Made by a program: the position numbers and the translations under genes. The notes beneath the pieces are model-generated. The model saw only the letters and a program-made list of their open reading frames with translations. It did not search any database and was not told where the DNA came from. From contig JAIOQZ010000025.1 in NCBI GenBank assembly GCA_021108395.1, forward strand, positions 1 through 44,389: 44,389 bases of DNA, in the 5' to 3' direction. Positions 9,355-44,389 of this stretch are shown here, piece after piece. The first letter of the stretch is position 1. Each line of letters opens with the position of its first letter. Origin of the DNA: Candidatus Cloacimonadota bacterium. GTDB taxonomy: Bacteria > Cloacimonadota > Cloacimonadia > Cloacimonadales > JAIOQZ01.

Positions 9355-11694
9355 ATGAGACTTGGAATAATGGCGCTCGTACTATTTGTTCTTACTTCAT
9401 CCTTGCTGTTTGCACAGCAAAACGATTCGGAAGTACCCCAACTGGATTTTGAAAAGATAAACGCTCGGTATCATACAAATCGCTGCAACAACGATTATGA
9501 AATCCTGTCCACTTTCACCTCAATCGAACTTTTTGAACTACTCTTTGAGTTTGCTTTAGATGGCTCCAGTCACGTCGGTGAGTCCATGAAAAGCGTAACT
9601 AACCACATTCTCGGAATACCCGACAAGCAGAATTATGAAATTGCCATTATTGAATGGATTGGCAAAGAAAACTATCCTCCCGTGTTCAGACGGATATTAA
9701 TCGATCTTGCAGAAGAATGGATAAAAATTGAAAATCCAAACTACGCCAGATTTCAGGAGGTCCTGATCAAAGTTGCTTTTGAGAATGCAACAGATTTGTA
9801 TCTGAGGAGATCTGCTGTCAGCAGTATGGATGTGGAAGACTCAGCATCTCAGCAGGTTTTGTCAGATTTGTATGATCAAACAGATGATCAAGCGCTTAAA
9901 AGGCACATTTTATGGAAGATGCGATTTGCCAGGAGCCCCGCTTTGGAGGATAGATTAGCTCCGATACTGGCAAATCCACATGAGTACGATGAGAAATTCC
10001 TGAAGAGCGCAATACAGTTTACACGCCCTGATTTCGATTTTCTTGATGAGTTGGTTGCTATTGCCCAGGATACCGAATCTGAATCGATATTTTGTGAGAC
10101 TATGAGAGCTCTTGGTAGAATGAACACTCCAGAAGCTGTAATTGCCTTTATCAATTCTTGGGGAAGGTTGGGACACAGCGATACTCCTGCCCCGGTAATG
10201 AGGTCTGACCCTGCAAGGAAGCCTGTCTCTGGAAGGAAGCCTGTCCGATCAAGGCTGCCTTACACCAGATTGATACTTGCTGGTGATCTGATGCTCCGAC
10301 CTTTTCACACAGCCGTAGAAGAGATGCTTACACCTGAGCAGAGCGATGAATTCATTATATACGGTCTCAAGGCTGTGCGGATAGGAGGATTACGTATTGA
10401 AATGGATGTGATCGAAAAAATCAAGTCAGAAGCAGGTAATCCTGAAGTTCAGGATGAGTGTGATTTGACCCTTGAATTTCTACTGAATAACCAGGAAAAT
10501 CGCAATGAGGATAGAGAAAGGAGTGTTACAGGAATATTTGGAGATAGAAAAGAGCCACCAAAATTCGTGTGTGTGCATCTGAGCGATTCGTATATGTCAG
10601 AACTGGATTTTGAGAAAATTGACGCTCGATATCATACAACTCGTTACAAACAGGATATTGCTGTTCTTTGGGCTATGACCGCAGTCGAGCTTTTTGAATT
10701 GGCCTATGAGCTTGTTATAGACCATCCTGACAGAGGTAGAAATGGCGCAATGGACATACATCCGTATGTGACAACTGTTCTGTTTGAGAAAAATTATAGC
10801 AAAGCGCTGATACAGTGGATCGGCGACGAAACCTATCATCCAAAGTTCAGATTATATTTGTTGGATATGGCAGGATTCTGGATAAACAGTGAATGTGCAA
10901 ACTACGCCAGATATCAGGAAGTCTTGCTGAAAGTTGCTTTTGAGAAGGAATCAGAAGTGTATCTAAGAAGCTATGTACTCAATTTTATAGATTGGGAAGA
11001 CTACGCATCTCCGCAGGTTTTGTCAGACCTGTATGATCAGACAGAGGAGCCAAGTCTAAAACGACAGGTTTTGTCGAGGATGAGAATGGTAGAAAGCCCT
11101 GCCCTTGAGGAAAAGATTAGCACCATTCTGACAAATCCATCTGACTACGATGAAGCATTCCTGAAATGCGCAATGGACAGCATGCTGCCCGATTTTGATG
11201 ATAATTATATTGATGAGCTGGTTATTATTGCCAGAGATACGGAATCCGTAAATATATACCATGTTGTTCTAAGCTCTCTAAATAGAATGAACACCCCAGA
11301 AGCTATAATTGCACTGATTAATTCTCTGGGAAGGTTTGGTTACAACACAACGCCTGGTTACATTCCTTGGACAACTTCTTCGTATAGTTCAATATGGAGA
11401 AGACATCTTCCTGAGTTGCTGTGGCATTCTCAGATAACAGTAGAAAGGATGCTTACACTTGGGCAGAGCGATGAATTCCTGATATATGGCCTCAGGGCAG
11501 TGCGGATTGGATATCTACACATTGAAATGGGAGTAATCGAAAAAATCAAGTCTGAAACAGATAATGCTGAGATCAGGGCTGAGTGTGATATGACATTGGA
11601 ATACCTTATTGAAAACCAGAAAAAACACAATAAAGACACAATGAGGAAAGGGCAACTGAATTGGACCAAACGCCACGAGGATAATAAGCGGTGA
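9355..11694 (+). CDS. Exported HEAT-like repeat protein with internal duplication
   Basis: 779 aa. Signal peptide 1-20 (MRLGIMALVLFVLTSSLLFA). RBS AAGGGGGATACA precedes the ATG. The mature protein is two similar halves: residues about 30-404 (from LDFEKINARYHTNR) and about 417-765 (from LDFEKIDARYHTTR), each ending in a (L/M)TLE(F/Y)L(L/I)(N/E)NQ motif. Each half consists of helical pairs such as QVLSDLYDQT and IALINSLGR, suggesting HEAT/ARM-like solenoid repeats. No catalytic motif is visible. The gene is clearly AT-richer than its neighbours, which hints at transfer. Function unknown. Confidence 0.8.
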   Translation: MRLGIMALVLFVLTSSLLFAQQNDSEVPQLDFEKINARYHTNRCNNDYEILSTFTSIELFELLFEFALDGSSHVGESMKSVTNHILGIPDKQNYEIAIIEWIGKENYPPVFRRILIDLAEEWIKIENPNYARFQEVLIKVAFENATDLYLRRSAVSSMDVEDSASQQVLSDLYDQTDDQALKRHILWKMRFARSPALEDRLAPILANPHEYDEKFLKSAIQFTRPDFDFLDELVAIAQDTESESIFCETMRALGRMNTPEAVIAFINSWGRLGHSDTPAPVMRSDPARKPVSGRKPVRSRLPYTRLILAGDLMLRPFHTAVEEMLTPEQSDEFIIYGLKAVRIGGLRIEMDVIEKIKSEAGNPEVQDECDLTLEFLLNNQENRNEDRERSVTGIFGDRKEPPKFVCVHLSDSYMSELDFEKIDARYHTTRYKQDIAVLWAMTAVELFELAYELVIDHPDRGRNGAMDIHPYVTTVLFEKNYSKALIQWIGDETYHPKFRLYLLDMAGFWINSECANYARYQEVLLKVAFEKESEVYLRSYVLNFIDWEDYASPQVLSDLYDQTEEPSLKRQVLSRMRMVESPALEEKISTILTNPSDYDEAFLKCAMDSMLPDFDDNYIDELVIIARDTESVNIYHVVLSSLNRMNTPEAIIALINSLGRFGYNTTPGYIPWTTSSYSSIWRRHLPELLWHSQITVERMLTLGQSDEFLIYGLRAVRIGYLHIEMGVIEKIKSETDNAEIRAECDMTLEYLIENQKKHNKDTMRKGQLNWTKRHEDNKR

Positions 11695-11734: not shown

Positions 11735-11781
11735 GCTCTACCGCTGTAGATGCCCGGAGAGGGGCACAACAGGGAGAATAG

Positions 11782-13752
11782 TTGAAAGTCGCTATATACA
11801 TCTCGAATCACGGCTACGGCCATGCCACCCGCATGGCGGCGCTGGCGCAGACGCTCAACGAGGCGGGCATCGTCTGCTGGCTGTGCACCGACCGCCCGGC
11901 GTTTCTGTTCGCCGGCCTCGACCCCCAGCTCACGCTCCAGCGCAGGGTCAGCCTCGACTTTGGCCTGGTGCAACACGGCTGGAGAACCGCCGACGCCACA
12001 GCTACACTGGCGGGACTGAACGAGCTATGGTCGCGCCGCGAAGACCTGCTGGCGACTGAGGCGGCCTTTCTGCGCCGCGAGCGCATCGACCTCGTGGTGG
12101 GCGACATCCCGCCGCTTGCGTTCGAGGCGGCGGCGCGAGCCGGGGTACCCTCGGTGGCGATGTCCAACTTCGACTGGCCATTCATCTATCGCAATGTGCT
12201 GGGCGGGGTGAAGGCCGAGCAGGCGCTCGCCCGCGTCGAGCGTGCCTGCGCCCATGCCGGTCTGGCGCTGCGATTGCCGTTTTCGAGTCGGCGGAGCATG
12301 GCGTCGTTCCCGCGAATCGAGTCATTCGGCCTGTTGACGCGCAAGGCGAACACGCGACGGGCGTCGGTTCGCCGCCAACTGGGCGTGAGTGACGATACGC
12401 TGCTGGTTCTCGCGCTTTTCGGTGGCATGGGCGGCTCGACGGTTGATTTCGCCGCGCTGTGTGCCCAGCCGAACGTGCAGGTTCTGGCGGTGGAAGCCGG
12501 GCCTCCCGCAGACAACTACCGCGTGCTGCCCCGCAGCGCCGACCTGCCGTCGCTGCTGCCAGCGGTGGATCTCGTGCTTACCAAGCTGGGCTACAGCACA
12601 CTGGCGGAGTGCGTTGTGGCCGGAGCGCCGCTGCTGTGCACTCACCGCGACAGCCAGCCCGAGGACGTTCTGCTCAGTGACGGCCTGCGCGAGATGAACC
12701 ACCCGCATCAGCTGGTGTCTCCCAGTGAACTGGCAGGCCTCGATTGGCCGCAGGCGCTGGACTGGGTGCGGCGGACAAAGCGGTCTCGTGGCCGCGCCAC
12801 TGCCAACCGCGAAGTCGCCCGACGCTGCGTGCGCCACGCTTTCGAGAATAGGCCGCCCATCCAGGCCGTGCTGGATGTGGGCAGCAACAACATCTTGTTG
12901 CTGTGGGGGCGCCGTGAGGGTGAGCGCATAGTGGCCGACCACCGCGCCAGCGCCGTCAGTGCCCTGGGTCGTGGCATGAGGGGCGACCGCCTCACCACCG
13001 CCGGACTGCGCCGCACCCGCCGCATCCTCGACCGCTATATCGCCATGAGCCGCGCCGTCACCGACGACATCCACGTCTATGCCACCAGTGCTGCCCGCGA
13101 GGCCGCCAACATCGGCGAGCTGGCCGACTGGCTGCGACGGCGGCACGGCGTGGCGCTACGCATTCTCAGCGAGGAGGAGGAAGCCCGCTGCGGCGGACTG
13201 GCCGCGGCGTCGGCGTTTGCGGGGCGGCTGTTCACCTTCGACATCGGCGGCGGCAGCACCGAGTGTACGCTTGTCGAGGACGGCGAGGTGGTGCGCTGGG
13301 CGAGTTTGCCGGTGGGGTTGCGGCGACTGGAGAGCATGTTCGGCGCGGATGGGCAGGCACGGCGCGACTACATGCGCCTGCACCTGGAGGCGCTGGTCGA
13401 CTGGAACCTGGACAACGCGCGGCCTGTGGGACTGGGCGGAACCGTGTGCAATCTGGCCGCCGTGAAGCTGGGGCAAGTGCGCTACGCTGCCGACGCCGTG
13501 CATGGCTCGCAGCTCTCCGCCGCCGACCTGACGCGCTACTCCCGCGAGCTATGCGCCATGCGCGACGCCGACATCGCTCGGCTGATGCCGTTCGAGCCAA
13601 GCCGCGCACGACTGGTGCGCGTTGGCGTGGAGTGGATGGCCATGTTGCTAATGCGCGCCACAGGCGAAGGCAGGGGCGCCATCGCCGTCTGCGACCGCGG
13701 GATGCCGTTCGGGTATCTGATGTTGCTGGGGAGGGAGGCTACAACCTTGTGA
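11782..13752 (+). CDS. Glycosyltransferase-like (L-arabinokinase N-terminal type) / Ppx-GppA phosphatase fusion
   Basis: 656 aa, TTG start with AGGGAG six bases upstream. Residues 1-350 resemble the MurG-like GT-B module at the N-terminus of L-arabinokinases: YISNHGYGHATRMAALAQTL, CTDRPAFLFAG, LDFGLVQHGW, ATEAAFLRRERIDLVVGDIP, MSNFDWPFIYRN, and a C-terminal donor lobe ALFGGMGGS...TKLGYSTLAECVVAGAPL. Residues about 360-656 are an ASKHA-fold Ppx/GppA domain: LDVGSNN (364), ATSAAREAAN, SEEEEARCG, FDIGGGSTE, LPVGLRRLE, GLGGTVCNLA and VHGSQLS. Family knowledge predicts exopolyphosphatase or pppGpp hydrolase activity for the second half. No internal stop, frameshift or start signal separates the halves. 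It overlaps the convergent lipoprotein gene by 14 bp. Confidence 0.85.
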   Translation: MKVAIYISNHGYGHATRMAALAQTLNEAGIVCWLCTDRPAFLFAGLDPQLTLQRRVSLDFGLVQHGWRTADATATLAGLNELWSRREDLLATEAAFLRRERIDLVVGDIPPLAFEAAARAGVPSVAMSNFDWPFIYRNVLGGVKAEQALARVERACAHAGLALRLPFSSRRSMASFPRIESFGLLTRKANTRRASVRRQLGVSDDTLLVLALFGGMGGSTVDFAALCAQPNVQVLAVEAGPPADNYRVLPRSADLPSLLPAVDLVLTKLGYSTLAECVVAGAPLLCTHRDSQPEDVLLSDGLREMNHPHQLVSPSELAGLDWPQALDWVRRTKRSRGRATANREVARRCVRHAFENRPPIQAVLDVGSNNILLLWGRREGERIVADHRASAVSALGRGMRGDRLTTAGLRRTRRILDRYIAMSRAVTDDIHVYATSAAREAANIGELADWLRRRHGVALRILSEEEEARCGGLAAASAFAGRLFTFDIGGGSTECTLVEDGEVVRWASLPVGLRRLESMFGADGQARRDYMRLHLEALVDWNLDNARPVGLGGTVCNLAAVKLGQVRYAADAVHGSQLSAADLTRYSRELCAMRDADIARLMPFEPSRARLVRVGVEWMAMLLMRATGEGRGAIAVCDRGMPFGYLMLLGREATTL

Positions 13753-14434
13753 TGCTGCTCGCGCCGGAAACCTCCTGCTTGATAATCCTCGCATCGCCGC
13801 GATAGCGAACCTCGCAGGCGCCGCTCGCTACGAGCGACAACGACTCGCTCACGCTCACCTCTATCTCGGCTGCCCCGGCCGCTTCGATGACGGTGGAGCG
13901 GGTCTGCAACTCGAACGCTTCAACTTCGCCGGCTCCGGCTATCTCGATCATGAAGACATCGGCGCGGCCACGCAGCCAGAGGTCACCGGCGCCGGCCACT
14001 TTGAGCGACAGTGAGTCGGTGTCCACCTCGAGGTCGATTTCCCCCGCTCCGGCCACGCGTAATTCGAGATGCGGCACCCGCAGTGGTGTGGTGGCTTCGA
14101 TTTCACCGGCGCCGAGCACCGCTATCCGGTTAATTTCGCGCACGGTGACGTGATAGACGATGGGCTTGGTGGGGCGGACAAACAGCTTGCGCTTCATGCC
14201 GATAATGAGCTCGTCGCCTTCCACGCGGGCGTGCACACGCTCGATGATGTTGTCCTCCGCCTCGATCACCAGCGATTCATGATCGCCCTGCGTAATGATA
14301 ATGGCGCCCAGCCCGTGCAACTCGATTCGCTGAAAGTCCGACACGTCGCACTGCCGCGTGACGACGTTGCCAGAACCTTTGACGCAGCCTGTCAGCGACA
14401 GAGCCAGAAGCAGAAATCCAGTTATGTAGCGCAT
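13739..14434 (-). CDS. DUF2807 (GIN-domain) repeat lipoprotein
   Basis: 231 aa from the ATG at 14434, with GGAGG four bases upstream; the longer open frame runs into the nfnB-like gene and is not used. Signal peptide with lipobox LTGC at about 14-17. The mature part starts GSGNVVTRQCDVSDFQRIEL, typical of the 'head GIN' DUF2807 beta-solenoid. Seven turns carry a GAG-type motif (LGAGEIEA, AGAGEIDL, AGAGDLWL, AGAGEVEA, AGAAEIEV, SGACEVRY, SGASSITRL), about 20 residues apart. It probably sits on the outer membrane or faces the periplasm. It is the last gene after the NfnAB-type cluster, separated by a hairpin, so cotranscription is uncertain. Confidence 0.88.
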   Translation of the reverse strand: MRYITGFLLLALSLTGCVKGSGNVVTRQCDVSDFQRIELHGLGAIIITQGDHESLVIEAEDNIIERVHARVEGDELIIGMKRKLFVRPTKPIVYHVTVREINRIAVLGAGEIEATTPLRVPHLELRVAGAGEIDLEVDTDSLSLKVAGAGDLWLRGRADVFMIEIAGAGEVEAFELQTRSTVIEAAGAAEIEVSVSESLSLVASGACEVRYRGDARIIKQEVSGASSITRL

Positions 14435-14453
14435 GTGGCCTCCAAAAGTAGTC

Positions 14454-14475
14454 GGGGCTGCCCGCAGACAGCCCC
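14454..14475 (-). terminator. Hairpin between nfnB-like gene and DUF2807 gene
   Basis: GGGGCTG (14454-14460) and CAGCCCC (14469-14475) form a 7-bp GC-rich stem, followed on the minus strand by GACTACTTTTGG. The short T-run suggests a weak terminator or attenuator. Confidence 0.45.
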
Positions 14476-14481
14476 CAACGC

Positions 14482-16272
14482 TTATTTCGCTTTTTTGGTC
14501 AGTTTCTTGTGAATGGCGTCGGCGGCGATGCGGCCCGCGCCCATTGCCTCGATGACCGTGGCCGAGCCGGTGACGATGTCGCCGCCGGCATACACGAATT
14601 CCTTCGAGGTTTCCATCGTTTCCATGTTCACATCGATGTAGCCCCACTTGTTGCGGTTGAGGCCGGGCGTTGTGCTGAAGATGATGGGGTTGGGCCCGGT
14701 GCCGATGGCCACAATGACCATGTCGGTATCGAGGATGAATTCGCTGCCCTCGATGGGAACGGGACGGCGGCGGCCGGAGTCGTCGGGCTTGCCCAGTTTC
14801 ATCTGGATGCACTCCATGCCCTTCACCCAGTTCTGGTCGTTGCCGATATAGCGAACGGGGTTGGTGAGCAGCTTGAACTTGATGCCCTCTTCCTCGGCGT
14901 GATGAACCTCGGCGGCGCGAGCCGGCAGCTCCTTGCGTGAGCGTCTGTAAACGATGGTCACCTCTGCGGCGCCACAGCGCAAGGCGTTACGAGCGCAGTC
15001 CATGGCCACGTTGCCGCCACCCAGCACGGTAATCTTGTTGCCGCTGGGCTTGGGCGTGTCGTACTCGGGGAACTTGTATGCCTTCATCAGGTTGATGCGG
15101 GTGAGGTATTCGTTGGCCGAAAACACGTTGCACAGGTTCTCGCCGGGGATATTCATGAAGCGGGGGAGACCAGCGCCCACCCCGATGTAAACCGCATCGA
15201 AGTTTTCGAGCAGTTCGTCAACGGTGTAGATGGTGCCGATGACGTGGTTCAGCTCTACCTTAACGCCCAGCTTGCGCAGATAGTCGAGCTCGAAACTCAC
15301 GATGGACTTGGGCAGGCGGAACTCTGGAATGCCATAGAGCAGCACGCCGCCGGCTTCGTGAAGCGCCTCGTACATCGTTACGCCATAACCCAGCAGAACA
15401 AGGTCTGCGGCGCAGGTGATGCCACCAGGCCCAGAGCCGATGACAGCCACCCGCTGCTTGCGCTTTTTCTTGATGAGAGGCACTTTCACCAGGTCCATCT
15501 TGCGCTCGAAGTCGGCCACATAGCGTTCGAGGTTGCCGATGGCTACGGGTTCGTCGCGGATACCCAGCACGCACTTGGCCTCGCACTGGTCTTCCTGAGG
15601 GCACACGCGACCGCACACGGCTGGCAGCACATTGCGCTCCTTTATCTTCTTGGCTGCTCCGTCAATGTCGTCTTCACGCAGCAGCTTGATGAAACCGGGG
15701 ATGTCCACCGCAACGGGGCAGCCATCTACGCATAGCGGTTTTTTGCATTGCAGGCAGCGCCCGGCCTCGAGCTGGGCCAGCTCGGTGGTGAGGCCGTATG
15801 GTACCTCGACGAAGTTGTGCACCCGCAGTTTCTGATCCTGCTCCGGCATCTCCTGCCGCGGGATTTTCAGCTTGATCTGGCGTTCGTCGGCCTTGGTGAG
15901 TCCGTGCCATTCGCAGCCGTATTTCAGGCAGATGTAGAAATTGATGAGCTTGGCGAAAGCCGAGATGATGACCAGCGCCACCGGGCTGTTGCACTCTCCG
16001 CAGTTGCGCTCGTCGGTGACGAGGCTGGCATTGCACTTCGGGCAGATGAGGTCATCGAGCACGGCGCCCTCGGGCAGGTCAATCGAGCACTCCACCTCGA
16101 ATACGTCGAGGTAGGGGCTGAGACGCAGCTCGATGTCTTCACCCTTGTACTTCGCATTGAATTTGATAACGTGTTCAGTCTTTGTCTTGATGTTGAAGCT
16201 GTTGTTGCAATGTGGGCAGTAGGTGTTCAAGAATGTCTTAAACTTGAGATACTTTACGTCATAATCCAGCAT
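14482..16272 (-). CDS. nfnB: NfnB/SudA/GltD-type NAD(P)H oxidoreductase large subunit with N-terminal zinc-ribbon module
   Basis: 596 aa; NfnB/SudA/GltD proteins are usually about 465. RBS GGGGAG precedes the ATG. Residues 1-130 are an extra zinc-ribbon module: Cys19/22, Cys77/80, Cys91/94, Cys115/120 and His123. The rest is canonical: two [4Fe-4S] sites (Cys173/176/181/185 and Cys220/224/230/234), FAD site VAVIGSGPGG (275-284), NAD(P) site ITVLGGGNVAMDCA (about 414-427), and closing AGGDIVTGSATVIEAMGAGR. With the small subunit encoded 58 bp upstream it should form a ferredoxin:NAD(P)+ transhydrogenase, possibly electron-bifurcating, or a sulfide dehydrogenase. A GOGAT role is less likely because no large GOGAT subunit is present. 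The module is related to those of the protein at 17184. Confidence 0.9.
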   Translation of the reverse strand: MLDYDVKYLKFKTFLNTYCPHCNNSFNIKTKTEHVIKFNAKYKGEDIELRLSPYLDVFEVECSIDLPEGAVLDDLICPKCNASLVTDERNCGECNSPVALVIISAFAKLINFYICLKYGCEWHGLTKADERQIKLKIPRQEMPEQDQKLRVHNFVEVPYGLTTELAQLEAGRCLQCKKPLCVDGCPVAVDIPGFIKLLREDDIDGAAKKIKERNVLPAVCGRVCPQEDQCEAKCVLGIRDEPVAIGNLERYVADFERKMDLVKVPLIKKKRKQRVAVIGSGPGGITCAADLVLLGYGVTMYEALHEAGGVLLYGIPEFRLPKSIVSFELDYLRKLGVKVELNHVIGTIYTVDELLENFDAVYIGVGAGLPRFMNIPGENLCNVFSANEYLTRINLMKAYKFPEYDTPKPSGNKITVLGGGNVAMDCARNALRCGAAEVTIVYRRSRKELPARAAEVHHAEEEGIKFKLLTNPVRYIGNDQNWVKGMECIQMKLGKPDDSGRRRPVPIEGSEFILDTDMVIVAIGTGPNPIIFSTTPGLNRNKWGYIDVNMETMETSKEFVYAGGDIVTGSATVIEAMGAGRIAADAIHKKLTKKAK

Positions 16273-16330
16273 ATTCTCCCCTTATACAAAATTTAAGGCA
16301 GTCTCCCCGTTGTTTTTCGTCAGTCGCGTG

Positions 16331-17155
16331 TCACTTTATCGAGAACAGAAGCGCGTCCTTCTCCTCTTTGAGGTACATCGAGTTGCGCATGCTCAGTTCC
16401 TCGAAGTCCACCTTGTGTCCGTCAAAATCAGGGCCGTCAACACAGCAGAACTGGGTGCGATTGTCCACAGTCACTCGACATCCACCGCACATGCCGGTGC
16501 CGTCAATCATCACCGGATTGAGGCTGACCATAGTGTGCAGGTCGTGCTTCTTTGTCAGCTTGCACACATTCTGCATCATGATGATTGGCCCGATGGCATA
16601 GGCGAGTTTGATGTCATAACGCTCTTCGAGGTACTTTGCGAGGGGCTCGGTAACGAAGCCCTGCTGCCCGTGCGTTCCGTCGTCTGTGCACACGACCAGC
16701 TCGTCACACAACAGATTCATCTCGTCTTCGAGAATAAGCAAATCCTTGGTGCGAGCGCCGATAATGCCGATGACGTAGTTGCCGGCCTCTTTCATGTCTT
16801 TGACAACGTGGTGGAGGATGGCGATGCCGGTGCCGCCGCCAACGCAAATTACAGTGCCGCATTTTTCGACATGCGCCGGGCGACCCAGGGGGCCAACGAC
16901 ATCCTTGATGAAGTCGCCGGCGTCGAGTGACCGCATGAGCGCGGTTGTCTTGCCCACCACCTGGAACACGATGGTGATGACGCCGGAGAAGCGGTCAACA
17001 TCGGCGACGGTGATGGGGATGCGCTCTCCTGTTTCGTTTACACGGAGGATTACAAATTGCCCGCTCTGAATCTTGGCGGCGATTTTTGGCGCCAGGATGT
17101 CGAAGCGGATGTTCGTGCCTTGAGCCATTTCATCCTTTCGTACGATTTCAAACAT
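16331..17155 (-). CDS. nfnA: NfnA/SudB-type FNR small subunit (FAD, [2Fe-2S])
   Basis: 274 aa. Start at 17155 with GAGGAG upstream; the longer ORF to 17443 overlaps the upstream gene in another frame. The FNR-type flavin domain has RIPITVADVD (45-54) as the FAD-binding segment. The NAD(H) lobe starts at VICVGGGTGIAILHHV. The C-terminal DGTGMCGGCRVTV...CCVDGPDFDGHKVDFEEL carries the [2Fe-2S] ligands Cys223, Cys226 and Cys237 or 238, with Asp218 at the position that supplies the unusual fourth ligand in characterised NfnA. It partners with the downstream NfnB-type subunit; the two gene order and spacing are those of nfnAB/sudBA operons. Confidence 0.92.
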   Translation of the reverse strand: MFEIVRKDEMAQGTNIRFDILAPKIAAKIQSGQFVILRVNETGERIPITVADVDRFSGVITIVFQVVGKTTALMRSLDAGDFIKDVVGPLGRPAHVEKCGTVICVGGGTGIAILHHVVKDMKEAGNYVIGIIGARTKDLLILEDEMNLLCDELVVCTDDGTHGQQGFVTEPLAKYLEERYDIKLAYAIGPIIMMQNVCKLTKKHDLHTMVSLNPVMIDGTGMCGGCRVTVDNRTQFCCVDGPDFDGHKVDFEELSMRNSMYLKEEKDALLFSIK

Positions 17156-17183
17156 AAATGCGTCTCCTCGCTCTCTATTCAGA

Positions 17184-18062
17184 TTACCATTCTTCGCTGT
17201 CTTCCATGATGATATACTTGAGGTCATCATCGGAGAGGCCGTGCCAGGTGCAGCCTTTCTTGGAACAGATGTAGAAGTCAACCATGCGGGACATGGCGGC
17301 CACAGTGATGCGGGCAACGTCTGAGTTACAGCGCGGGCAGGGGTCTTCGTCCACCATGAGGCTCGAGTCGCAATGCCAGCATCTGATGTCTTCGACGGCG
17401 GTGTCCTCGGGAAGATGGATGCTCGATTTGCGGGTGAACACATTGAGATACGGGCTCAACATGAGATAGCCGATTTCGTTGTTGCCCTTCATCACCTTAA
17501 ACTTGAGCATGTCACGCTCGTTGAGGCTTTTCTTGCAGTGCGGACAGAACGCATGCAGGAAGGTGCCGGACTCGATAATATCGCGATCGTCATCGTCACG
17601 CCGAGGCGGTGGGGCGGTGGGGTGTTTGGCCTTTTCCACCGCGACTGGGTCCTGTTGGCCGCGGTAGGCGAAGTCTTCATAGAAGTGGTGCAGGGCGACG
17701 TTGAGATCCTCGAACTCAATCGAGTGTTTCTCGCAACCGGCACGCGAGCAGATGCTCACCTTGCCGCCCTCGAGGAGGTGAACTGGCACCAGCGGGGCGT
17801 TACAGGCATAGCAATTCTTGGTGGCCAGAAGCTGCTGTTTACAGTGAGGGCAAAAGAATTGGGCGATTTCTTCATCTCGCACGTTCACGGTAGCCTCGTA
17901 GTTGTAGCTTCCGTAGATGGAACTCAGCCAGATTTCGCCTTGCCCGGCCTCCACACTGATCTGAAGCTTGACGCCGGGCTTGGTATCGATCAGTTTGTTC
18001 TCATCCATCAGCGAGGCGCCGCAGAGCGGGCATTTTACCCGAAGCGAAACGTAGTTAACCAT
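17184..18062 (-). CDS. Tandem zinc-ribbon protein of the NfnAB-type operon
   Basis: 292 aa, cytoplasmic. Two modules of about 105-115 residues joined by an acidic/proline linker (about 148-162, PPPRRDDDDRD). Module 1: Cys11/14, Cys71/74, Cys84/87, Cys105/110 and His113. Module 2: Cys173/176, Cys228/231, Cys242/245, Cys266/271 and His274. Between the first and second cysteine pairs is a beta-rich stretch; in module 2 it reads LSPYLNVF, almost identical to LSPYLDVF in the N-terminal extension of the NfnB-like subunit, and both modules end YIC...GC.WHGL. RBS AGGAG; 28 bp from nfnA. First gene of the operon. I do not know a named family. A structural or electron-carrier role is possible, but the spacing fits zinc better than heme or Fe-S. 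Inferred partner: the NfnAB complex. Confidence 0.85.
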   Translation of the reverse strand: MVNYVSLRVKCPLCGASLMDENKLIDTKPGVKLQISVEAGQGEIWLSSIYGSYNYEATVNVRDEEIAQFFCPHCKQQLLATKNCYACNAPLVPVHLLEGGKVSICSRAGCEKHSIEFEDLNVALHHFYEDFAYRGQQDPVAVEKAKHPTAPPPRRDDDDRDIIESGTFLHAFCPHCKKSLNERDMLKFKVMKGNNEIGYLMLSPYLNVFTRKSSIHLPEDTAVEDIRCWHCDSSLMVDEDPCPRCNSDVARITVAAMSRMVDFYICSKKGCTWHGLSDDDLKYIIMEDSEEW

Positions 18063-43171: not shown

Positions 43172-44389
43172 TTATCTCGGTGTGTTACCGCAGGGGGCAC
43201 ACACAGCGTGGTTTTGTACCTGAACACACGAAGTGTGTGCTTTTGTACCAGGAACACACGAAGTGTGTGCCCTTGGCTTCTGTGCGGCGGATGTTCGCCA
43301 CCGGGGTGTTCTTGTCATCGGCAGCAGGCGGCAGATGGCATAGCCCATGGCGTCACTGATGTGGGTGAGGTCGGCGTGGCTCTTGTCCAGCTCGCCGCGT
43401 CTGTCGCGAGTGACCTGTTCGAGATCGCGGATGAGATGCACGCAGCGCCGCATCACGCGCACCTTGTCGTTCGAGAAGGCGTGATTGACGGTGTTGAGGC
43501 GGTCGCGCACCAGCGGGTTGCGGCTGCCCAGGATGGCAAAGCCGTGCTGCTTGAGGATGGCGATGTCGCTGAGGCCTGCCGAAGCTGTGGAGCGGCGCAC
43601 GCCCGTCATGTCGGGGCATACGGTGATGGCGCGCTGGCCCCAGCGTTCGCGCAGCGCCTCGCACATGCGCTGGGTGTGCCCGCCGCGCAACCACACCTCC
43701 TCGCACCAGATGAGCCTGTCGTCCTGTCGCCAGCCCACAATCGCCACCATCGGGTCAACGTTGAAGTCCATGCCGCAGAAAAGCTCGGCGGCAGGCGGCG
43801 GCTGGCCGTCGTCGATGAGATGTCGCTGACGGTCGAATGCGTAGTAGGCGGCGTCGCCGGTGAGGTTGACGAACTCGCCATCGAGATATTGCGCCAGCAG
43901 GCGGTCGTCATACTGCGCTCGCAGTAATTCGAGATAGCTCGGCGGCAGGTGCGGGTTGTCGGTGGCGCTGGCGCGCACCAGATGCTTGCCCTCGCCTTCA
44001 TCGACGAACAGCTTGTGGGTGTAGTGAAAGCCTTCGGGCGTGGTGACGATGTACAGCCGGGGGTCGTCGCAGCCGCGCAGGCGGCCCAGCGCCTTTTTCC
44101 AGGCGGTGTCGCACTGGTCCCAGCCGGCCACGTCGAACTCGTCGAAGCCGACGTAGGTTAGCTCGCTGCCCACCATGCGGTGTGGCGTCATCATCTGATA
44201 GACCCGGATGCCGCCATAGCGCGTGGTGATGCGGTGACCACGGTGAATGGCGCGAATGCGGCGCCGTGCCAGCAGCGCCAGGAACGGCTCGACGAACAGT
44301 TCTTCGGCCAGGTCGTAGGTGGGGTACAGAATCCAGCCCTGCGACTGCCCGCGCTTGTTCTTGCGAAAGAGGTGGTTCAGGAACGTTTC
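43172..44389 (-). CDS. terL: Phage terminase large subunit (partial, 5' end outside window)
   Basis: The reading frame is open from the right edge to the stop at 43172. The Walker A motif lies beyond the edge. Visible: SQGWILYPTYDLAEELFVEP, Walker B in LTYVGFDEFD (the conserved DEFD), and the motif III/coupling region VTTPEGFHY. The nuclease domain has CGMDFNVDPMVAIVGW, VCPDMTG and THISDAMGY acid residues of the RNase H-like TerL nuclease. It packages DNA together with the portal protein encoded next. The last about 45 codons look out of frame (see the finding near 43320): an alternative frame there reads NTPVANIRRTEAKG and ends at 43185. Confidence 0.88.
   Translation of the reverse strand, partial: ETFLNHLFRKNKRGQSQGWILYPTYDLAEELFVEPFLALLARRRIRAIHRGHRITTRYGGIRVYQMMTPHRMVGSELTYVGFDEFDVAGWDQCDTAWKKALGRLRGCDDPRLYIVTTPEGFHYTHKLFVDEGEGKHLVRASATDNPHLPPSYLELLRAQYDDRLLAQYLDGEFVNLTGDAAYYAFDRQRHLIDDGQPPPAAELFCGMDFNVDPMVAIVGWRQDDRLIWCEEVWLRGGHTQRMCEALRERWGQRAITVCPDMTGVRRSTASAGLSDIAILKQHGFAILGSRNPLVRDRLNTVNHAFSNDKVRVMRRCVHLIRDLEQVTRDRRGELDKSHADLTHISDAMGYAICRLLPMTRTPRWRTSAAQKPRAHTSCVPGTKAHTSCVQVQNHAVCAPCGNTPR
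43212..43270. repeat. Tandem 29/30-bp hairpin repeat inside terminase 3' end
   Basis: Copy 1 at 43212-43240 and copy 2 at 43241-43270 share TTTTGTACC and ACACACGAAGTGTGTGC. Each contains the stem ACACAC/GTGTGT around GAA. It adds a short repeated peptide (THFVCS in the alternative frame) to the protein's end. One more partial ACACA... occurs just before (43199-43206). Confidence 0.75.

Follow-up and report, generated by a model that had tools for sequence, protein, structure and literature searches.

A glycosyltransferase-like module joined to a distinct Ppx/GppA-fold domain in Cloacimonadota

Arabinokinase consists of an N-terminal domain and a sugar kinase, and its N-terminal domain is known just as a 'putative glycosyltransferase' (PMC12281597). 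Among the Ppx/GppA phosphatases, residues of functional importance, including R86 and the catalytic E114, have been set out for DrPPX (PMC11234463), and proteins of this family are able to convert ADP to AMP (PMC3411833). Nucleoside diphosphates (NDPs) inhibit glycosyltransferases, and in the Golgi they are removed by NDPases (PMC9368800). Here we describe a bacterial protein in which two known folds, an arabinokinase-type glycosyltransferase (GT) module and a Ppx/GppA-fold module, are joined in a new architecture. Its gene lies on contig JAIOQZ010000025.1 of a Candidatus Cloacimonadota bacterium (assembly GCA_021108395.1); the stretch analysed, positions 1 to 44,389, is referred to as the window.

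The fusion gene occupies positions 11782-13752 (+) as a single open frame of 656 codons plus a stop, giving a product of 656 residues. It begins with TTG, 5 nt after a probable ribosome-binding site (GGGAG, 11772-11776, +), and an in-frame TAG (11779-11781) abuts the TTG at 11782, which fixes the earliest possible start. The initial annotation had described an uninterrupted frame with these two domain identities, as confirmed by the open 656-codon frame, a PF02541 match and matches to GT-B folds. The six motif strings it listed were all found in place (HGYGHATR, residues 10-17; TDRPAFLFAG, 36-45; MSNFDWPF, 127-134; DVGSNN, 365-370; TSAAREAAN, 435-443; DIGGGSTE, 487-494). In an AlphaFold model of the whole chain (pLDDT 93.1, pTM 0.92; input of 30 window and locus sequences), the halves are separated by a short linker of ~6 residues, running from a helix (342-354) to a strand (361-366). 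By its pTM, this model suggests a defined placement of the two domains relative to each other. A Foldseek search with it returned Ppx/GppA phosphatases at the top and GT-B enzymes next. Across 27 aligned proteins, 23-38% identical to the window protein, 20 residues are invariant.

Tail-to-tail with the fusion gene lies a gene for a DUF2807 putative adhesin (13739-14500, −; E = 1.4e-41), and the two reading frames share about 14 bases. The upstream neighbour (9355-11694, +) encodes a 779-residue HEAT-repeat-like protein with a signal-peptide-like start, made up of two similar halves, PQLDFEKINARYHTNR... and SELDFEKIDARYHTTR.... An NfnAB-like pair (14482-18062, −) comprises a glutamate-synthase-type flavoprotein (Fer4_20 and Pyr_redox_2) and a DHODB-type subunit; the flavoprotein is extended at its N-terminus by a cysteine-rich segment resembling a zinc ribbon, and the pair adjoins a free double-zinc-ribbon protein. 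A terminase large-subunit-like gene (43172-44194, −; PF03237/PF17289) at the window end marks a possible prophage edge.

The fusion is a genuine protein, retained across much of Cloacimonadota. A frame spanning the junction without a break was found in 46 of 125 genomes of the phylum, from eight families as counted from the survey table, and one further probable fusion (G059) is interrupted where contigs end. Of the 37 named Cloacimonadota loci, 32 were fused; four of the other five end at a contig end, and the fifth (L043), apparently the same gene as L130 discussed below, is a lone GT. A one-contig genome of 2,246,820 bp (G010) carries the fusion at 1052722-1054776. With single-frame fusions in 46 genomes, G010 included, and in the named records, we give practically no credence to a misjoined contig or a frameshift at the junction, which the initial annotation had wanted excluded.

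That annotation had also asked whether related genomes encode the halves separately. In some families they literally do, as lone Ppx halves or, in L130, a lone GT, but the fusion is still no artefact: the separate halves are gains or losses along lineages. Three families (f8, f9 and f13) have the Ppx half only, in a gene of about 300 codons, and in families where no GT of this type was detected the lone Ppx half must have a GT-independent role. L130 is a GT alone; it stops after this module, overlapping MiaB, and shows no Ppx remnant. In G005 (L030/L110) a stub of ~140 residues aligns to the GT profile as two collinear segments (E = 6e-7, single-target search). L008 has an intact Ppx half and a GT half altered at H10, G13, F130, W132, G270, Y271, E276 and R289. 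The two halves also diverge at different rates in the Cloacimonadaceae (f10), where all 171 pairs showed higher identity in the GT half (mean 45.5%) than in the Ppx half (32.1%); the Ppx half has drifted there, with the third glycine of DIGGGS replaced and the HG motif often lost. The halves were about equal in the other fused families (35.5% and 37.3%). In quick trees, the Cloacimonadota GTs formed a single clade (SH-aLRT 97), and fused and standalone Ppx halves were intermixed outside the Cloacimonadaceae, forcing at least three changes. The history suggested by these trees may be either one fusion followed by losses or several fusions.

The GT half (residues 1-352; 11782-12837, +) was assigned from AlphaFold, Foldseek and PDB profile matches. 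Modelled alone it gave a pLDDT of 94.1, and its model matched UGT/MurG-type GT-B structures in Foldseek with probability 1.00, a TM score of about 0.6 and a large rmsd, a value that GT-B lobes differing in angle can give. A PDB profile search with relatives of the GT half matched UDP-glycosyltransferases (E = 6e-6). The curated libraries nearly miss it, the NCBIfam model TIGR00661 reaching E = 0.0024, 17.2 bits against a cut-off of 195.9. PF13528 was matched by 11 of 23 and PF04101 by 9 of 23 members of the GT-half family. Conservation is marked. In the N-terminal glycine/histidine loop, HGYGHATR (11809-11832, +), H10, G11, G13, H14 and R17 are unchanged in fused and standalone relatives. The alignments also show an invariant Asp108 in a D-x-P motif (12103-12105, +) and a conserved N129-F130-x-W132 within MSNFDWPF (12160-12183, +). 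The C-domain aligns with that of UDP-glycosyltransferases, and in its predicted nucleotide-sugar-binding motif, KLGYSTLAE (residues 268-276; 12583-12609, +), K268, G270 and E276 are invariant. H10, G11, G13, H14, R17, D108, K268 and E276 remain so even in comparison with distant standalone GT relatives. Taken with the models, the GT half is a GT-B fold with an intact motif set, and the transfer of sugar from an NDP-sugar is predicted. The fold similarity had raised the idea of a MurG replacement, which we rejected, as L132 has a separate partial MurG-like ORF beside cell-wall genes (identified by eye).

The kinship with arabinokinase suggested by the initial annotation drew support from a profile comparison. 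The GT half aligned by hhalign with an unverified N-terminal sequence of ARA1 at 100% probability (E = 3e-48, 28% identity, 324 columns), and arabinokinase does carry a putative glycosyltransferase at its N-terminus (PMC12281597). The fusion has no GHMP kinase domain, its C-terminal half being Ppx-fold. Outside Cloacimonadota, the GT module was found only standalone, in five surveys and among the named loci. In all 29 named loci from outside the phylum, the GT frame lacked a Ppx domain. The surveys covered 284 genomes around L081 (Myxococcota), 297 around L074 (Proteobacteria), 300 around L077 (Bacillota), 294 around L092 (titled Rhodopirellula) and 399 around L085, the last set overlapping that of Bacillota, and in all five the strong GT matches were frames of about GT size. 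Long Planctomycetota frames (591-1031 aa) were rejected as fusions after inspection of the four longest in the L092-centred set, which showed read-through upstream of a C-terminal GT. No GT-GHMP fusion occurred among the strong GT matches of the five surveys, two of them overlapping, which leaves the claim that many bacteria have one unconfirmed. A plasmid search with the GT half gave no match, and a literature search for GT-Ppx fusions found no relevant report in the collection searched. Some record titles are doubtful. The contig of L092, titled Rhodopirellula sp. MED697, has gene surroundings like those of Synechococcus (L075, L086) and probably belongs to a contaminated bin; L085 and L091, titled uncultured Bacteroides, carry GTs that group inside Bacillota, so the titles are probably wrong, a reading with which the genomes shared by the L085-centred and Bacillota searches agree.

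The Ppx/GppA-fold ASKHA half (residues 360-646; 12859-13719, +) is readily recognized. PF02541 matched residues 403-616 (E = 4.9e-26, 92.2 bits; gathering score 27), and Foldseek gave 1t6d at E = 1.7e-20 and 3cer at an rmsd of 2.7 Å. TIGR03706 (exo_poly_only) matched residues 362-646 with E = 1.7e-36 but, at 126.1 bits, fell short of the model's 307-bit cut-off. None of the five hydrolytic residues is missing: D365, R439, E467, D487 and E494 align with D7, R86, E114, D136 and E143 of DrPPX. D365 lies in the phosphate loop DVGSNN (12874-12891, +), R439 in TSAAREAAN (13084-13110, +), and D487 and E494 in DIGGGSTE (13240-13263, +), while E467 (13180-13182, +), the counterpart of the catalytic glutamate (PMC11234463), is invariant in all classes. 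D365, R439, E467 and D487 are invariant throughout the subfamily and E494 almost so.

The residues that grip polyphosphate are a different matter. We compared 60 subfamily members with 13 canonical Ppx paralogues, mapping positions 372, 394 and 642 to H14, R37 and R271 of DrPPX by motif spacing and not by direct DrPPX alignment. Position 372 (Leu in the window protein; 12895-12897, +) is Lys in 13/13 paralogues and basic in 0/60 members; position 394 carries Arg or His in 13/13 and a basic residue in 5/60; and at position 642 the polyphosphate-contacting Arg is found in 13/13 and 0/60, the window protein having Pro642 within RGMPFG (residues 639-644; 13696-13713, +) at the place of the canonical G-L-R-(E/H)-G. 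Position 370 is Asn in 54/60 members and Ser or Thr in 13/13 paralogues. A split with an SH-aLRT of 99 sets the Ppx half apart from canonical Ppx paralogues in related genomes, and the source genome has such a paralogue as well (L002). Of the 'full set' of Ppx/GppA motifs initially reported, therefore, the hydrolytic five stand, and the C-terminal R-x-G motif and two other basic pocket positions are missing. On these alignments the Ppx half is best described as a distinct subfamily that has kept its hydrolytic residues and lost the basic residues that hold polyphosphate.

Searches of 45 genomes, the source genome (98.3% complete) among them, yielded neither PPK1 nor PPK2, and the source genome and G010 gave no match to a RelA/SpoT synthetase domain, positive controls being detected in each case. 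The RelA/SpoT synthetase was absent from 17 of 22 fusion-bearing genomes sampled and present in 5. A literature search for Cloacimonadota and polyphosphate returned nothing relevant in the collection searched. As the canonical Ppx paralogue persists in genomes without PPK, the absence of PPK alone says nothing about the role of any Ppx-fold protein. Together with the lost pocket residues and the absence of RelA/SpoT here, it makes a polyphosphate or pppGpp role for the Ppx half of the fusion unlikely. More generally, the label 'exopolyphosphatase' on Ppx-GppA proteins may mislead where no polyphosphate kinase is found.

Gene neighbours were identified by eye. In Clostridia and Methanofastidiosum, standalone relatives of the GT are surrounded by GDP-mannose-pathway and polysaccharide or exopolysaccharide genes. 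The Cloacimonadaceae fusion stands in a conserved run of waaA, an AmrS-like and a NusG-II-like gene, the fusion, (a DAHP-synthase-like gene), miaB, yicC, RNase R and murI, a neighbourhood that is not kept in the window. These two settings point to envelope glycans. A second arrangement recurs around the Ppx half: four loci (L098, L100, L103, L104) have a NYN-domain-like gene, Ppx and a DAHP-synthase-like gene in that order, and in L132 the fused GT-Ppx takes the middle place. DAHP synthases usually have K-P-R-T-S; several of the DAHP-synthase-like proteins in these five triplets have K-L-R-T-S or K-M-R-T-S.

The best-supported reading, which we advance tentatively, is that of a GT carrying a phosphoanhydride hydrolase whose specificity has changed, with NDP as its most likely substrate. 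NDP is the simplest choice because Ppx/GppA proteins hydrolyse ADP (PMC3411833) and NDPs inhibit glycosyltransferases (PMC9368800). The GT half would use a nucleotide sugar to glycosylate an acceptor, probably of the cell envelope, freeing NDP; the Ppx half would act on a short phosphoanhydride, most probably this NDP, and yield NMP and phosphate; and removal of the NDP would relieve product inhibition and render transfer irreversible, a service that eukaryotic glycosyltransferases receive in trans from the Golgi GDPase/UDPase. Consistent with this are the invariant GT positions and the match of the C-domain to UDP-glycosyltransferases, the hydrolytic five kept while basic positions 372, 394 and 642 are lost, the lack of PPK1 and PPK2 in 45 genomes and of RelA/SpoT in the source genome and G010, the glycan genes beside standalone GTs and waaA near the Cloacimonadaceae fusion, and the pTM of 0.92, which hints at defined domain placement. 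Against it, however, the Ppx half stands alone in families without a detected GT of this type, L130 retains a GT without a Ppx half, the Cloacimonadaceae Ppx half diverges much faster than its GT half, and what recurs next to the Ppx half is a gene resembling DAHP synthase, not a glycan gene. That the fusion is specifically a bifunctional enzyme confined to the phylum, with a former polyphosphate hydrolase clearing NDP from its attached GT as a single-chain bacterial counterpart of the Golgi partnership, is possible but doubtful; if true, the standalone Ppx relatives would represent a subfamily of NDP hydrolases new to the Ppx family.

What else could the Ppx half do? It might be a regulatory ASKHA domain, perhaps weakly hydrolytic, that senses nucleotide or phosphate and gates the GT half. 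Its drift in all 171 Cloacimonadaceae pairs while the GT stays conserved would suit such a sensor, as would L130, which manages without it; but a pure sensor has no need of the invariant E467, R439, D365 and D487, and L008 shows the reverse, with a degenerate GT half, so we think this unlikely. We also regard as improbable that the halves are largely independent and were fused through neighbourhood, the Ppx half serving a phosphate-hydrolysing step tied to the DAHP-synthase-like neighbour. The order of the NYN-like, Ppx or GT-Ppx and DAHP-synthase-like genes is the same with or without the GT (L098, L100, L103, L104, L132), and each half is lost or degenerate somewhere (L030/L110, L008, L130), yet retention of the fusion in eight families, the ~6-residue linker and the pTM of 0.92 argue for physical coupling. 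Quite improbable, in our view, is that the GT half makes a phosphorylated product from which the Ppx half removes the phosphate. Characterised Ppx/GppA enzymes act on phosphoanhydrides and we know of none that cleaves sugar phosphomonoesters; moreover, a standalone Ppx half would lack a supplier of its substrate. This reading does have an established precedent in the trehalose-6-phosphate synthase/phosphatase fusions, which place a GT and a phosphatase in one chain (PMC3634074). Least probable, and now very much so, is the initial proposal of an exopolyphosphatase or pppGpp hydrolase beside a GT half that senses or processes a sugar nucleotide: the fold and core motifs of the Ppx/GppA family favour it, but the lost pocket residues, the lack of PPK1 and PPK2 in 45 genomes, the absence of RelA/SpoT from the source genome and 17 of 22 sampled fusion-bearing genomes, and the separate canonical paralogue L002 all count against it. 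That annotation was half right, the fusion and its folds holding good and the alarmone or polyphosphate role being unlikely.

With a tentative NDP hydrolase as the preferred reading, the fusion can be set beside known systems. It shares the ASKHA fold and the hydrolytic five with Ppx/GppA phosphatases (PF02541; Aquifex aeolicus 1t6c, D. radiodurans 8jgo, H. pylori 6pc0); unlike them, its Ppx half is without the R-x-G arginine and the other basic pocket residues, consists of the catalytic module only and has a GT attached. The GT half has the GT-B fold and a related N-terminal loop in common with the MJ1255/VC2487 (TIGR00661) and PF13528 glycosyltransferases, but it scores far under the TIGR00661 cut-off (17.2 vs 195.9 bits) and is followed by a C-terminal hydrolase domain. 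Plant L-arabinokinases ARA1 and ARA2 appear to carry the same GT-B module, N-terminal in both, as judged with the unverified ARA1 sequence; their partner is a GHMP sugar kinase, whereas that in the fusion is a Ppx-fold hydrolase domain. That the arabinokinase-type GT module has a second fusion partner unrelated to the first, a phosphate hydrolase, restricts its possible roles, and the fusion offers a bacterial protein on which that module can be studied. The Golgi GDPase/UDPase has an ASKHA-type fold, and the phosphatase of trehalose-6-phosphate synthase/phosphatase is HAD-type and acts on a phosphomonoester of the product. The likeness to the Golgi enzyme lies in the proposed logic only, the removal of inhibitory NDP (PMC9368800), and implies no sequence relationship; there the proteins are separate and work in a membrane lumen, unlike the single-chain fusion. 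Trehalose-6-phosphate synthase/phosphatase resembles the fusion in having a GT and a phosphatase in a single chain (PMC3634074).
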